Source: an uncultured Pelagibacteraceae bacterium
GTDB taxonomy: Bacteria > Pseudomonadota > Alphaproteobacteria > Pelagibacterales > Pelagibacteraceae
Assembly: GCA_902545405.1 (NCBI GenBank)
Contig: CACCFT010000001.1
Coordinates: 1-64,000 of the forward strand
Direction of reading: 5' to 3'
DNA: 64,000 nucleotides
In this document: piece after piece, positions 1-32,844 of the stretch
How positions within the stretch are numbered: position 1 is the first letter of the stretch
How the letters are laid out: the number at the start of each line of letters is the position of its first letter
Notes under the pieces: model-generated
Told to the model about the DNA's origin: nothing
Databases searched by the model: none
The model's input: only the letters and a program-made list of their open reading frames with translations
Program-made: the position numbers and the translations under genes

Positions 1-1599
1 TTCACCTAGAATGTGAATTCTTCCATCTTTTGCCTGTTTTAAGGCCTGCTCCATAATTTCAAATGTTATTCCTGTAATTTTAATGTCCATTTGGAGAGAT
101 GTTATTCCATCCTTAGTTCCTGCAACTTTGAAATCCATGTCACCAAGGTGATCTTCATCTCCTAAAATATCAGATAAAACACTAAAGTCATCTCCTTCTT
201 TAATTAATCCCATTGCAATACCAGCAACTGGTTCTTTAATTGGTACACCTGCATCCATCAATGCTAAAGATGAACCACAAACAGTTGCCATTGATGACGA
301 GCCATTTGACTCGGTTATCTCTGATACAATTCTAAATGTATATGGAAAACTTTCCTTTGAAGGCAAAGATGAATTAATTGCTCTCCAAGCTAATTTTCCA
401 TGTCCTATTTCTCTTCTACCGGTTCCTATTCTACCAGTTTCTCCAACAGAGAAAGGTGGAAAATTATAATGAAGCATAAATCTCTCTTTTTGTAGACCCT
501 CTAAACTTTCTATTTTTTGTTCATCATCAGATGTTCCAAGTGTAGTTGTAACTATTGCTTGTGTTTCTCCTCTTGTGAACAAGGCTGATCCATGTACTCT
601 AGGAAGTATACCAACTTCACACATAATTGGTCTAACATCTGCAAGCCCTCTTCCATCAATTCTATTTTTATTTTTTAGAATATCAGTTCTTACAATTCTT
701 TTTTCTAAATTTTTAAGTTCAGAATTTACATCAAGATCTGTATAATTTTCATCATCTTCATATAACTTTTTAGCTTTATCAGTTATCTCAGAAATTAAAT
801 TTGATCTTTCCTGTTTATCTTTTATTGAAAATGCTTTTTTAAGCTCCTCAGTAAACTCATTTTCCAACTTGTTTTTTACTTCTGAAAGATCTTTTTTCTC
901 AACAACCCAATCAGGTTTTTTGCATTCTTTAGCTAGTTCCTCAATCATTTCAATTACAGGAACAAACCCATCGTGACCAAACTTAACAGCATTTAACATT
1001 TCCTCTTCAGTTAAACCACTCGCCTCTGACTCAACCATTAAAACTGCATCTTTTGTTCCAGCTACTACGAGATCAAGTTTTGAATCTTTAAGTTCTGCTT
1101 TGGTTGGATTAAGTACATATTCTCCTTCAATAAAGCCAACTCTAGAAGCACCAACTGGACCCAAAAATGGCATTCCTGAAACTGCTAGTGCAGCTGATGA
1201 GGCAATAATTGATAAAATATCTGCTTCATTTTCTTTGTCATAAGATATCACAGTTGGTAATAGCTGAACTTCGTTTTTAAATTCATCTGGAAACAGTGGT
1301 CTAATAGGTCTATCAATTAATCTTGAAATTAATGTTTCACTATCTGTTGGTCTTGCTTCCCTCTTGAAATAGCCGCCCGGAATTTTACCTGCTGCATAAT
1401 ATTTTTCTTGATAATTTACTGATAAAGGAAAGTAATCCATATCTGGATTGACTTTTTTGGCTCCAACTGCTGTTGCTAAAACTACTGTTTCTCCACATTG
1501 AGCGATGATTGCGCCATCTGCCTGTCTTGCTATTTTACCTGTTTCTAAACTTATCTTTTTCCCTGCTACTTTTATTTCTTTCTTTACAATTTTAAACAT
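1..1599 (-). CDS. pnp: Polyribonucleotide nucleotidyltransferase (PNPase), C-terminus beyond window edge
   Basis: Open minus-strand frame from ATG at 1599 ([46 protein letters not shown]...); follows rpsO as in the canonical operon; not in the ORF track because it runs off the window. Confidence 0.95.
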
Positions 1600-1848
1600 T
1601 TACTTCCTTAAGTTTAATTTTGATATTACTTCTTTATAAGACTCAATTTTATTTTTCTTTAAATAGTCTAATAATTTTTTTCTTCTATTTACTGCTCTTA
1701 AAAGTCCAACAGATGAATGTTTGTCTTTTTTGAACTGTTTAATATGTTTAGATAAGTTCTCAATTTTATTTGTTAATTGAGCAACTTGTACTTCTGAAGA
1801 ACCTGTATCCTTATCATGCATTGAAAGTTCTTTTTCGTTTTTCGCCAT
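1600..1848 (-). CDS. rpsO: 30S ribosomal protein S15
   Basis: 82 aa with typical S15 sequence (DTGSSEVQVAQLT..HSSVGLLRAVNRRKKLLDYLKK). Confidence 0.97.
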   Translation of the reverse strand: MAKNEKELSMHDKDTGSSEVQVAQLTNKIENLSKHIKQFKKDKHSSVGLLRAVNRRKKLLDYLKKNKIESYKEVISKLNLRK

Positions 1849-1858
1849 TTTCTTTTCC

Positions 1859-2224
1859 TTATTTATTTGTTTGTTTTATTAAATTTTCAATTTTTTCTGC
1901 GTAATCAAAAGAGTCATCTTTTACAAAAATCAGTTTTGGTAAAAATTTCATTACTATCTTTTTTGATAAGACTTTCCTAATTACAAATGAAAATTCTTTT
2001 AATTTAGTAACAACCTCTTCAGCATCTTTTCCTCCTAAGGGCATTACAAAAATTTTTGCTGTTTTTAAATCTTGAGACATTCTTACTTCAGTCACTGTTA
2101 TTTCTTTAGTAGATAAGTTTAGTAATTTTGCTTCGTCTCTTATAAATAACATACCAAGAGCCTGTTTGATCATTTCACCAACTCTTAACTGTCTTTGGGT
2201 CACTGGTTTTCCTAAACTAGTCAT
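1859..2224 (-). CDS. rbfA: Ribosome-binding factor A
   Basis: 121 aa RbfA-like protein; position between infB and rpsO. Confidence 0.93.
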   Translation of the reverse strand: MTSLGKPVTQRQLRVGEMIKQALGMLFIRDEAKLLNLSTKEITVTEVRMSQDLKTAKIFVMPLGGKDAEEVVTKLKEFSFVIRKVLSKKIVMKFLPKLIFVKDDSFDYAEKIENLIKQTNK

Positions 2225-4443
2225 TATATTGTTCTCTCTGTTATTTTAGAATTATAAACCTCAATTACGTCATTTTTCTGGAAATCGACAAAATCTTTTA
2301 GCGTTATTCCACATTCTAGACCAGCAGATACCTGTTTAGTTTGATTTTTCTCTCTGAATATCGAGCCTATTCTTCCATTGAAAATTATGGTTCCATCTCT
2401 GATAACCCTTGCATTAGAGTCTTGGGTAATTTCACCATCTGTTACTTTTGAACCTGCAACTTTACCAACTTTTGAAACTTTAAATATTTCCAGTATCTCT
2501 GCAGTTCCAATAATTTTTTCGTCTACTTCCGGAGTTAACAGGCCAGACATTTTACTTTTTATGAAATCTAAAACTTCATAAATAATATTAAAATTAGAAA
2601 TTGAAATTTTTTCTTGTTCAGCTCTTTTTTTTGCTTCTTTGCTAGGTTTTACATTAAAAGCTATAATTACGGCATCAGACGCTTTTGCCAGTGTAACATC
2701 TGTTTCTGTGACCATCCCAATATCTGATAAAAGTATTTTTGGCTTTACCTCATCATGTTTAATTTGATTTATTGCATTTTTTATGGCTTCTGAAGAACCA
2801 TGTACATCTGATTTTATAATAATATTTAGTTCTTCAGATGATTTATCTTTAAAAGCAGAGTCTTGAGTAATAAAAGACAATGGATTTTTGCTCTCTTTTG
2901 CCTCTTGTATTCTGACGCTAGATAGAGATTTTGCGTCTTTTTCTGTTTTTAAGACAATAAAGTCATCTCCTGATTTTGCCGCTCCATTAATTCCTAATAT
3001 CTCAATTGGCGTTGAAGGTTCAGCTAAATCAATTTGTTTTCCATTGTCATTAATTATAGCTCTCACTTTTCCCCACTTTAAACCACTAACAAAATAATCA
3101 CCTTTTTTTAAAGTTCCTGCAGTAATAATTACATTTGCGATTGGTCCTCTTCCTATATCAATTTTAGACTCCAGAACAATTCCTTTTGCATCAGTATCAA
3201 AATCAGTTTTTAGGTCTAATATTTCTGCTTGCAAAATAATACTTTCAACTAATTTATCTAAATTTTGTTTTGTTTTAGTGGATATTTCTACCATTAATGT
3301 ATCTCCTGATAAATCTTCAGCTATAAGTTCATATTCCAAAAGTTGATTTTTAATTCTTTGAGGGTCAGCATCAGGAAGATCACATTTATTTATTGCAACA
3401 ACAATTGGTACTTTAGCTGCTTTTGCATGTTTTATTGATTCTATTGTTTGAGGTTTTACTCCATCATCAGCTGCAACAACGAGGATTACTATATCAGTTA
3501 ACTTAGAGCCCCTTGCCCGCATTTCAGTGAATGCTGCATGACCAGGGGTATCTATAAAAGTTATTTTATTTTTTTCATTTGTAATCTGATATGCACCGAT
3601 ATGTTGTGTAATACCTCCAAATTCTCCAGAAACTACATTAGCTTTTCTCAAAGTATCTAAAACAGATGTTTTGCCATGATCTACATGTCCCATAACTGTT
3701 ACTATTGGAGCTCTACTTTTTAAATTTTGAGTTTTTATTTCTTTAATCTTTTCTAGAATTTCCTCTGCTTTTTCCTCTTTAACGGGATTGTGTCCAAATT
3801 CTTTAACTAAATACTCTGCAGTATCTGCATCAATTGTGTGATTGATTGTTACTGTTACACCCATACCCATCAAATATTTTATTATACTGCTAGACTGCTC
3901 AGCCATTCTATTCGCCAATTCTCTTATAGTAATTACCTCAGGTATATTAATATCCCTTTTAACTGGTTTAAAATTCTCCTTTGACTCCTCTTTGTTGAGT
4001 AATCTGTTTTCTTTCTGCTTAGCTCTTTTTAAAGAAGCAAGACTTCTTGATCTTGCACCAATATCATCTTCGTTTAAAGCTCTAGATACTGTGAGCTTTA
4101 ATTCTCTTCTTTTGCTACCAATTTTGGCAGATTTATTTTCTTTTAGAGAATTTTCACCTTTTAATCTTCTTGTTGCTCTTTGTTCTGCTAATTTCCTTTT
4201 TTCAAAATCTGATGTTACAGGAGATGGAGGTTTAGAAAAATTTGTTTTTTTTGGAATAAATGTACTTTGTAATTTACTTTCTGTTAACTTAGCACCTCTA
4301 GAAAAATTTGGCTTACCACCAAACCTTGTAGATCTTTTTTCAATTACAACTGTATTCTTTGATTGAGATTTCGCTTGTTCAATACTATTAATTGTTTTCT
4401 TGGTCGCTCCAGAAATTGATAACTTTAATTTTTTCTTTTCCAT
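2224..4443 (-). CDS. infB: Translation initiation factor IF-2
   Basis: GTPase motifs GHVDHGKTS, DTPGH, NKCD; IF2 domain order. Confidence 0.98.
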   Translation of the reverse strand: MEKKKLKLSISGATKKTINSIEQAKSQSKNTVVIEKRSTRFGGKPNFSRGAKLTESKLQSTFIPKKTNFSKPPSPVTSDFEKRKLAEQRATRRLKGENSLKENKSAKIGSKRRELKLTVSRALNEDDIGARSRSLASLKRAKQKENRLLNKEESKENFKPVKRDINIPEVITIRELANRMAEQSSSIIKYLMGMGVTVTINHTIDADTAEYLVKEFGHNPVKEEKAEEILEKIKEIKTQNLKSRAPIVTVMGHVDHGKTSVLDTLRKANVVSGEFGGITQHIGAYQITNEKNKITFIDTPGHAAFTEMRARGSKLTDIVILVVAADDGVKPQTIESIKHAKAAKVPIVVAINKCDLPDADPQRIKNQLLEYELIAEDLSGDTLMVEISTKTKQNLDKLVESIILQAEILDLKTDFDTDAKGIVLESKIDIGRGPIANVIITAGTLKKGDYFVSGLKWGKVRAIINDNGKQIDLAEPSTPIEILGINGAAKSGDDFIVLKTEKDAKSLSSVRIQEAKESKNPLSFITQDSAFKDKSSEELNIIIKSDVHGSSEAIKNAINQIKHDEVKPKILLSDIGMVTETDVTLAKASDAVIIAFNVKPSKEAKKRAEQEKISISNFNIIYEVLDFIKSKMSGLLTPEVDEKIIGTAEILEIFKVSKVGKVAGSKVTDGEITQDSNARVIRDGTIIFNGRIGSIFREKNQTKQVSAGLECGITLKDFVDFQKNDVIEVYNSKITERTI

Positions 4444-4453
4444 TTTTCATCTC

Positions 4454-6007
4454 TCAATCTTGATACACAATATTTCTTGCAGACATGATCAAATCATCAG
4501 CCTCTTTTTTTGAAAGAGCAAAATCTTCTAAATACCCTTTAATTCTTACTCTTTCACCCTTTACAACATCGTATCCACCTGTCAATTCATCTGAAGCTAA
4601 ATCTGCAAAATCATTTAGAGTCAAAATTTTTTTTTCTCCTAGCGTAACAAGCATCCCAGGAGTTAAACCTCTATGATTAATTAAATCGTTTTCTAAACCA
4701 AGATCTTTTATCCTATTAGCAATTTCCTCTTGATCTTTTTGGTAGAACTCTTTAGCTCTCTCTATTAACTCTTTTGCTGTTTCCTCTTCAATGCCCTCTA
4801 TTTTAATTAATGCATCTGGACTACTGTCTTTAATATCATCAATAGAAGAAAATCCTTCAGCTACCAATAATTGGCCGAGAGTTTCATCTAATTCCAAGTT
4901 TTTAACAAAGTTATCTGTTTTTTCTTTAAATTCTATTTGTCTTCTTTCTGAGTCTTCTTGATCAGTCATAATATTAATTTCATAATTCATTAATTTTGTA
5001 GCTAATCTTACGTTCTGTCCTCTTCTACCAATTGCTTTACTTAAATTTTCCTCGGTTAAAATTACATCAAGTTTTCTACCATCCTCATCTACATTCACTC
5101 TTTGTACCTCTGCAGGGGATAATGCGTTTGCAACTACTACAGCTGGATCCTCTGACCAATTAACTATATCAATTTTTTCACCTTGTAATTCATTTACGAC
5201 TGCTTGAACTCTACTACCTCTCATACCAACGCAAGCTCCTACTGGATCTAATGATGTATCAATAGCTTTAACACAAATTTTTGCTCTGCTTCCTGGATCT
5301 CTTGACGAAGATTTGATCTCAATAAGACCATCATAAATCTCGGGAACTTCTTGTATAAATAATTTTTCCATAAATTTTGGGTGCGCCCTAGAAAGAAATA
5401 TTTGTTGTCCCCGCGGTTCCCTTCTAACGTCTAAACAATATGCTTTTACTCTATCACCTGCCTTAATATTTTCCCTTGGTATCATCTCATTTTTTTGGAT
5501 TATTGCTTCAGTTCTTCCTAGATCAACGATAACATTTCCAAACTCTAATCTCTTAACAATACCACTTAAAATTGTATCTATTTTATCTTTAAAATCGTTA
5601 AACTGCCTTTCCCTTTCTGCCTCTCTAACATTAAAACTAATTACTTGCTTCGCAGTTTGTGCAGCTATTCTTCCAAAATCAAAAGATGGTAATGGCTGAA
5701 GAACTTCATCGCCAATTTGTTTTCCCTCATTATTTTGATTGAGTTTTATTGCATCATCAAGAGTTATTTCTAAATTAGAATTCTCTGGATTTTCAACAAT
5801 TACTAATTTTCTAAAAATTCCAATGTCACCGCTTTCCCTGTTGATTTCCACTTTAATTTCATTTTCTGATCCAAATTTTGATTTAGCAGCTTTAGCTATT
5901 CCATTTTCCATTGATCCTATAATTAGCTCTTTATCAATAGATTTTTCTAGTGCTACAGCCTCAGCTATTCTAATCAATTCTAATTTATCCGCTCTTCTAT
6001 TTAACAT
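4454..6007 (-). CDS. nusA: Transcription termination/antitermination protein NusA
   Basis: S1/KH domains (VGACVGMRGSRVQAVVNELQGEKIDIV; AIGRRGQNVRLA) upstream of infB. Confidence 0.97.
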   Translation of the reverse strand: MLNRRADKLELIRIAEAVALEKSIDKELIIGSMENGIAKAAKSKFGSENEIKVEINRESGDIGIFRKLVIVENPENSNLEITLDDAIKLNQNNEGKQIGDEVLQPLPSFDFGRIAAQTAKQVISFNVREAERERQFNDFKDKIDTILSGIVKRLEFGNVIVDLGRTEAIIQKNEMIPRENIKAGDRVKAYCLDVRREPRGQQIFLSRAHPKFMEKLFIQEVPEIYDGLIEIKSSSRDPGSRAKICVKAIDTSLDPVGACVGMRGSRVQAVVNELQGEKIDIVNWSEDPAVVVANALSPAEVQRVNVDEDGRKLDVILTEENLSKAIGRRGQNVRLATKLMNYEINIMTDQEDSERRQIEFKEKTDNFVKNLELDETLGQLLVAEGFSSIDDIKDSSPDALIKIEGIEEETAKELIERAKEFYQKDQEEIANRIKDLGLENDLINHRGLTPGMLVTLGEKKILTLNDFADLASDELTGGYDVVKGERVRIKGYLEDFALSKKEADDLIMSARNIVYQD

Positions 6008-6018
6008 TTAATAATCCT

Positions 6019-6043
6019 AAAAAAAAATGGGCCGAAGCCCATT
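6019..6043 (-). terminator. Rho-independent terminator between metK and nusA
   Basis: Minus-strand reading AATGGGC-TTCG-GCCCATT followed by an unbroken T run; 7-bp stem, C(UUCG)G tetraloop. Ends 11 nt before the nusA ATG. Confidence 0.85.
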
Positions 6044-6101
6044 CTGAAATTTCAATAATGTAGGTGAAATATATTTATTTTTTTTTAATATTCAACTTTA
6101 T

Positions 6102-7265
6102 TTACCTACTAAATACGTCAGATTTATCTGTCTTTTCCCAAGAAAATGAACCTTTATCATCTGGATCTCTTCCGAAGTGTCCATAAGCGGCTGTTTTTTC
6201 GTAAATAGGTCTGTTTAAATTAAGCATTTCTCTAATTCCTCTAGGACTTAAATCAAAATTTTCATTTATAAGATTTTCTACATGTCTGCTTTTTTCTTCA
6301 TCGTTGTCAAATAAGTCTACATAAATAGATAAAGGTTTTGATACTCCAATAGCATAAGCAAGTTGGATCAAACATTTATCTGCTATTTTTGATGCAACAA
6401 TATTTTTGGCTAAATATCTAGATGCATAAGCGGCAGATCTATCAACTTTGGTTGGATCTTTCCCTGAAAATGCTCCCCCTCCATGCGGAGCAGCCCCACC
6501 GTAGGTATCAACAATAATTTTTCTACCAGTCAAACCACTATCACCATCAGGACCTCCAATTACAAAATTTCCAGTCGGATTTACATAAATTTCTTTTTCA
6601 TCTAATGAACTTAACAATTCCTTTGGTATTGATCTCTCAATGTAAGGCTTAACTAAATCTCTTACTTGTGCTTGATTTACATCAGCTGAGTGTTGTGTTG
6701 ATATAACTACTGATTTTACTGATGATGGTTTTCCATCCTTATATTCAATTGTAATTTGGCTTTTTGAATCTGGCTCTATATTTTTTAATTTTCCTGATTT
6801 CCTGTCCTCTGCCATTAATCTTAATATTTTATGAGAATAGTATATTGGGGCTGGCATCAAAACGTCAGTTTCATTACATGCATAACCAAACATAATTCCT
6901 TGGTCACCCGCTCCCTCTTCTTTATTTCCTGAAGAGTCTACACCCATAGCAATATCAGCTGATTGAGAGTGTAAGTGACTTTCAACTGAAGTTGCTTCTT
7001 TCCAGGTAAATCCTTTTTGATCATAACCAATATCTTTAATGCAATTTCTAACCTTTTGAATTAGATCTTCTTTTTTAATTTCTGGACCTCTTACTTCACC
7101 AGCTAAGACAACTTTGTTAGTTGTTGTCAAAGTTTCACAAGCAACTCTTGATTGAGGTTCAGCTGCCAAATATGTATCAACCACCATATCTGAAATTCTA
7201 TCGCAAACTTTATCTGGATGGCCTTCAGACACTGACTCGCTAGTAAATAAGTAATCTTTTTTCAT
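6102..7265 (-). CDS. metK: S-adenosylmethionine synthetase
   Basis: [43 protein letters not shown] motifs. Confidence 0.98.
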
Positions 7266-32286: not shown

Positions 32287-32844
32287 AATAATTTTCCTAA
32301 TAATTTTTATTTTATAAACAGTTTCAACAAAAATAATATTGATAATTTAGAAAACAATACAGGTGTTATTTATAGAAGTTATAAAAAGAATATAAATTTA
32401 AAAGACGTTATTGAGACAAAAAATTACTGTTTTCAAAGGAAAATTAAATTTTATTTATCAAATAACTTTAAATTAGCACTAAAATTAAATTTAAATGGAG
32501 CATATATACCGTCATTTAATAAAAACTTTAATCATTTAAATTATTCATTAAAAAAATCTTTTATAATTTTGGGATCAGCACATAATATCAAAGAAATACG
32601 CCACAAAGAAAGACAAAATGTTAGATTAATATTTATATCATCATTATTTAAAAAAAATAAAAATTACCTTGGCATATATAAATTTATGAATTTAAAGAAG
32701 TATAGTAAAAAAAAAATTATAGCTCTTGGGGGTATCTCTAAAGAAAATCTTAAGAAGGTAAAACTCTTGAACTGCGAAGGTTTTAGCTCTATTTCTTATT
32801 TTGAAACAAAAAAAAAGGCCCCAAAAAGGGGCCTTCTTTTATAA
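32281..32844 (+). CDS. Thiamine-phosphate synthase-like (ThiE/TenI family) protein
   Basis: Degenerate TIM-barrel sequence with GAYIPSFNKN, IILGSAHNIKEI, IIALGGISKENLKKVKLLNCEGFSSIS. Confidence 0.7.
   Translation: MHNNFPNNFYFINSFNKNNIDNLENNTGVIYRSYKKNINLKDVIETKNYCFQRKIKFYLSNNFKLALKLNLNGAYIPSFNKNFNHLNYSLKKSFIILGSAHNIKEIRHKERQNVRLIFISSLFKKNKNYLGIYKFMNLKKYSKKKIIALGGISKENLKKVKLLNCEGFSSISYFETKKKAPKRGLLL
32815..32834 (+). terminator. Intrinsic terminator shared by the convergent ThiE-like and porin genes
   Basis: AAGGCCCC-AAAA-AGGGGCCTT hairpin with A run on one side and T-rich stretch (ttcttttata) on the other; overlaps the last ThiE-like codons. Confidence 0.85.

Follow-up and report, generated by a model that had tools for sequence, protein, structure and literature searches.

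A conserved terminator hairpin upstream of nusA in SAR11 bacteria, a probable minimal NusA-responsive attenuator in an operon without rimP

The leader of the nusA-infB-rbfA-rpsO-pnp operon of SAR11 bacteria is probably a minimal NusA-responsive transcription attenuator. This reading draws on a GGGC/GCCC terminator hairpin directly upstream of nusA, its conservation, its single copy per genome, its gene neighbourhood, a promoter signature, the absence of rimP and a like hairpin before rimP in related bacteria. The window analysed is a stretch of 64,000 nucleotides from an uncultured Pelagibacteraceae bacterium, and the positions of the relevant features are collected in Table 1. Its nearest named relatives belong to the Pelagibacteraceae (SAR11). 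Pfam searches confirmed the operon composition proposed in an earlier interpretation made from the letters of the window alone (the sequence-only reading). Besides NusA, the operon codes for IF2, RbfA and S15. The nusA start codon has the identical alignment position in full-length Pelagibacteraceae homologues. In the window rbfA adjoins rpsO (1848-1859) without an intervening truB, a gene that frequently sits between the two in other Proteobacteria.

Table 1. Features of the metK-nusA region and the nusA operon in the window
Feature	Position	Strand	Basis
metK, gene upstream of nusA	6102..7265	-	ORF and Pfam
-35 element TTGAAT	6090..6095	-	TTGA invariant in 19-sequence multi-genus alignment; 87-90% conserved in 69 sequences
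-10 element TATATT, spacer 16	6068..6073	-	Same hexamer in 55/73 named relatives with promoter match
Predicted transcription start A, 7 nt past -10	6061..6061	-	Conservation; inferred
Terminator stem AAUGGGC-UUCG-GCCCAUU, core GGGC/GCCC	about 6026..6043	-	Sequence, terminator scan and folding; core invariant in 69/69
U9 tract, first bases also pairing at stem base	6019..6027	-	Exactly 9 T in 69/69; 78/80 named loci
Shine-Dalgarno-like AGGA, immediately 3' of U tract	6015..6018	-	Sequence; SD-like motif in gap of 49/69 relatives
nusA, 517 aa (NusA_N, S1, KH and HhH domains)	4454..6007	-	ORF and Pfam
infB	2224..4443	-	ORF and Pfam
rbfA	1859..2224	-	ORF and Pfam
rpsO	1600..1848	-	ORF and Pfam
pnp, continuing past window edge	1..1599	-	Pfam

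Read 5' to 3' on the minus strand, the metK stop codon is followed by TTGAAT-N16-TATATT, AATGGGC-TTCG-GCCCA, nine T residues, AGGATTATTAA and the nusA ATG. The U tract lies 11 nt and the GCCC 21 nt from the start codon, confirming both sequence and coordinates of the strong terminator that the sequence-only reading had placed 11 nt before nusA. Folding of the 22-nt hairpin element yielded -11.9 kcal/mol (z -3.6), a value reached by none of 200 shuffled sequences, and the hairpin exceeds chance expectation. It was the top-ranked match in a terminator scan of the first 12 kb and is one of two convincing intrinsic terminators within the 64-kb window. The other strong terminator, GGCCCC-UUUUU-GGGGCC followed by U9 (32816-32837, minus strand), is located just 3' of a porin-like ORF (33857-32859).

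Sequence comparison revealed that GGGC-N4-GCCC followed by exactly nine T residues precedes nusA by 20-32 nt, counted from the end of GCCC, in all 69 Pelagibacteraceae with a readable region upstream of nusA, which belong to 12 genera. The loop varied among 23 sequences; the GGGC/GCCC core was unchanged throughout. In these 69 sequences stem core and U tract were conserved to 100%, the rest of the spacer mostly to 40-80%. Among the named loci the hairpin was present before nusA in 80/80, with nine T residues in 78 and ten in 2. Of the 112 Pelagibacteraceae genomes in which the exact signature was matched, 111 had a single copy beside nusA, and the remaining one contained two copies and also two nusA matches; a reversed control pattern gave 0 matches. 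The sister family f2 carries GUGGG(U)...(A/G)CCCAC and U9 before nusA (7/7). Compared with the Pelagibacteraceae stem, the inner C-G pair is replaced by U-A or U-G and an outer A-U pair by G-C, paired changes as a conserved RNA hairpin would predict. Conservation across SAR11, on which the sequence-only reading had made its interpretation depend, is complete in the sampled order. The genomes compared are unevenly sampled, many of them being incomplete assemblies. In the f2 genomes a gene ending in ..DFVNKIAFGMAIYVAA.SDS is followed by a single GGGCC-UUCG-GGCCC-C-U8 terminator. This single GGGC...GCCC copy, a lookalike unrelated to nusA, was rejected as the nusA hairpin of f2 since it serves as 3' terminator to a different gene. 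A study of structured RNAs in Pelagibacter (Meyer et al. 2009) mentions neither nusA nor metK.

Conservation also extends to promoter-like elements upstream of the hairpin. The sequence-only reading had placed a possible promoter here and was nearly right: the -35 element agrees, but the remainder is N16-TATATT (6095-6068) instead of N17-ATATTT. Within the -10 element the TA is invariant in the 19-sequence multi-genus alignment, as is A6061, which is 99% conserved in the 69 sequences amid poorly conserved neighbours and is an A in 69/73 named loci with a promoter match. From the conserved TTGA, TA and A6061, transcription is predicted to start at about position 6061. The predicted leader would comprise 54 nt, with the GGGC core about 20 nt past A6061, and a terminated RNA would measure about 40 nt. 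Since promoter and putative start lie 5' of the hairpin, nusA transcripts must read through it, as the sequence-only reading had proposed. That reading had further held that the gap between U tract and ATG has room for an SD sequence and not for a promoter, which agrees with the SD-like motif found there in 49/69 relatives and with a TANNNT in the tail of just 17/69. Its alternative of a leaderless start 3' of the hairpin found no support, as no conserved -10 element exists between hairpin and ATG.

The upstream neighbour of nusA is metK in the window and in most other Pelagibacteraceae genera. In several genera it is another, trmB-like gene, probably trmB to judge from the ends of its ORF and from the gene order common in Alphaproteobacteria. 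Such neighbourhoods suggest that a presumed metK-trmB-rimP-nusA order has eroded step by step. The hairpin remains with nusA irrespective of whether metK or this other gene lies upstream. It fails the test of metK-linked conservation, which argues against the hairpin being solely the 3' terminator of metK with nusA transcription starting downstream of it, leaderless or nearly so. Neither the sequence nor the 64-kb terminator scan revealed another terminator in the metK-nusA interval, and metK transcripts must meet the hairpin. Yet a like hairpin precedes rimP in other Alphaproteobacteria, the conserved promoter and A6061 lie upstream of the hairpin, and the gap holds an SD-like motif far more often than a TANNNT. 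We consider this explanation improbable. The hairpin probably also ends metK read-through transcripts, and this termination could be part of the selection acting on it.

When the predicted leader was folded, the terminator hairpin was the sole structure (-12.4 kcal/mol, z about -3), leaving the 16 nt 5' of the stem unpaired. No 5' aptamer or antiterminator fits into this leader. Likewise, folding, the 19-sequence alignment and column conservation in the 69 sequences revealed no larger conserved element or antiterminator around the hairpin. A second stem between GUAGGU at the metK end and ACCUAC was considered as an alternative or antiterminator structure and rejected (z -1.6; lost in close relatives). 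An Rfam search here gave no family at threshold. Matches to Bp1_162, L20_leader and MIR5241 were far under the cut-off and were discarded as products of the symmetric GGGC hairpin and the A/T runs.

A leader that folds into a terminator alone argues against control by another factor, be it NusG, Rho, a different operon product or translation coupling. The operon does encode IF2, RbfA and S15, and in B. subtilis NusG acts as an intrinsic termination factor (PMC8060035), but NusA is the best-documented regulator of such leaders, and control by another factor appears very unlikely. Somewhat more weight, although still a low one, is due to a constitutive partial terminator that keeps the output of the nusA operon at a fixed low level without feedback. 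All sequence facts are equally compatible with it, and conservation alone, including the invariant core and U9, would fit. However, a promoter could set a fixed output, and the order-wide maintenance of one dedicated stem sequence, together with the NusA response in B. subtilis (PMC12288461), favours regulation.

The SAR11 operon has lost the gene that marks this type of leader elsewhere. Profile searches with two Pfam models, on which the absence of rimP is based, detected the RimP N-domain in 0/142 cases in Pelagibacteraceae and 0/118 in the SAR11 order, and the C-domain in 0/98 in the order. RimP was found in 203/240 genomes across Alphaproteobacteria, a search run with positive controls. 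A class-wide search with the strict pattern was too noisy, as matches to the reversed control were common in GC-rich genomes, and was replaced by inspection of the regions upstream of rimP and nusA. In rimP-bearing Alphaproteobacteria a terminator-like hairpin, called by a simple script, preceded rimP in 41/58 cases compared with 3.4 in shuffled sequences. Thirty-two of the 41 have a GGG...CCC stem; these hairpins share the TGGGC/GCCCA stem, with changed outer pairs. The location of the hairpin before rimP in relatives and before nusA in SAR11 indicates that the leader follows the operon and outlived the loss of rimP in SAR11. Elsewhere it was not kept universally after this loss: among other rimP-less alphaproteobacterial genomes a hairpin was present before nusA in 4/11 and not found in 7/11. 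A G-rich/C-rich terminator hairpin also lies immediately upstream of nusA in four other alphaproteobacterial families that lack rimP. Feedback by RimP, named as possible by Naville and Gautheret (PMC2965389), would require a protein of which neither the N- nor the C-terminal domain could be detected in SAR11 as an order. A riboswitch would have to act with about 16 nt between predicted start and stem and without any Rfam family at threshold. Either possibility is extremely unlikely.

NusA promotes hairpin-dependent termination. In the proposed attenuator, the promoter between metK and nusA would initiate transcription at about A6061. The GGGC(N4)GCCC hairpin and U9 would be made about 20 nt further on, and RNA polymerase would either terminate, releasing an RNA of about 40 nt, or enter nusA. 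Abundant NusA would increase termination and reduce synthesis of new NusA, so that the protein would hold its own level constant. The device probably derives from the leader of rimP-nusA operons as found elsewhere, retained when rimP was lost.

The closest known counterpart is the rimP-leader described by Naville and Gautheret in 2010, a conserved, unusual GGGc(...)gCCC terminator stem with a U stretch, located 4-130 nt before the gene and lacking an antiterminator, for which NusA was considered the best candidate regulator (PMC2965389). The SAR11 leader resembles it in the GGGC/GCCC stem with U9 directly after it, in its location within 4-130 nt of the first gene of the operon and in the lack of a visible antiterminator. 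It is also an operon-specific motif, as the Pelagibacteraceae signature stands beside nusA and is not generic, although GGGC hairpins also occur as ordinary terminators, as the similar one at another gene in f2 illustrates. In contrast to the known family, rimP is undetectable in the order, metK and nusA are adjacent and the hairpin abuts nusA. RF01770, the gammaproteobacterial rimP leader, matched over its full length and on the correct strand with 21.5 bits against a gathering cut-off of 47, the structural match being limited to the terminal hairpin. We therefore do not class the SAR11 element as a strict rimP-leader, since the defining downstream rimP is absent and the score lies below the Rfam cut-off. 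It is a variant of a known attenuator, without rimP and with a minimal leader. The known-leader signature with its proposed NusA feedback (PMC2965389) and the attenuation in B. subtilis (PMC12288461) lend support to the NusA feedback attenuator that the sequence-only reading had called plausible; that reading had recognised neither the rimP-leader family nor the missing rimP.

Among predicted transcription attenuators the rimP-leader has been described as the most ubiquitous, and its candidate regulators are NusA and RimP. SAR11 bacteria, which are among the most abundant in the ocean, separate these candidates genetically: rimP is gone and the hairpin core is unchanged. Their leader can be regarded as a natural experiment that favours NusA over RimP as the feedback protein, the missing rimP being the informative part. 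We lean, with some reserve, towards the view that SAR11 possesses a stripped-down NusA homeostat with a single hairpin as the whole device, and that the survival of this hairpin marks NusA, and not RimP, as the protein to which the widespread rimP-leader responds. In these streamlined genomes with few intrinsic terminators, the leader of about 54 nt would be a very short natural substrate for NusA-controlled termination.

Terminators at the 5' side of NusA-encoding operons are known from several bacteria. In E. coli two terminators, t1 and t2, precede rimP in the metY-rimP-nusA-infB operon, and NusA feedback has been reported (PMC6511841). The location of the terminators is shared with SAR11, whereas the E. 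coli operon differs in its several promoters, a tRNA gene in the leader and the presence of rimP. Transcription of rimP-nusA-infB in S. agalactiae terminates 31 nt past the start; short and long transcripts have the same start, and negative NusA feedback was suggested (PMC4448216). Intrinsic termination very near the start is the common feature here, but this Gram-positive operon contains rimP. In B. subtilis, nusA is controlled by intrinsic termination in its leader, which NusA stimulates, and PMC12288461 reports this autoregulation as established, citing Mondal et al. 2016. As in SAR11, the 5' leader of the NusA-encoding operon contains an intrinsic terminator. The B. subtilis leader is long (180 nt; PMC2965389) and precedes ylxS/rimP, and its response to NusA has been reported, while the SAR11 leader has a predicted length of 54 nt and a putative NusA response. 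A mechanism like that of B. subtilis would be the most economical reading of the SAR11 leader.
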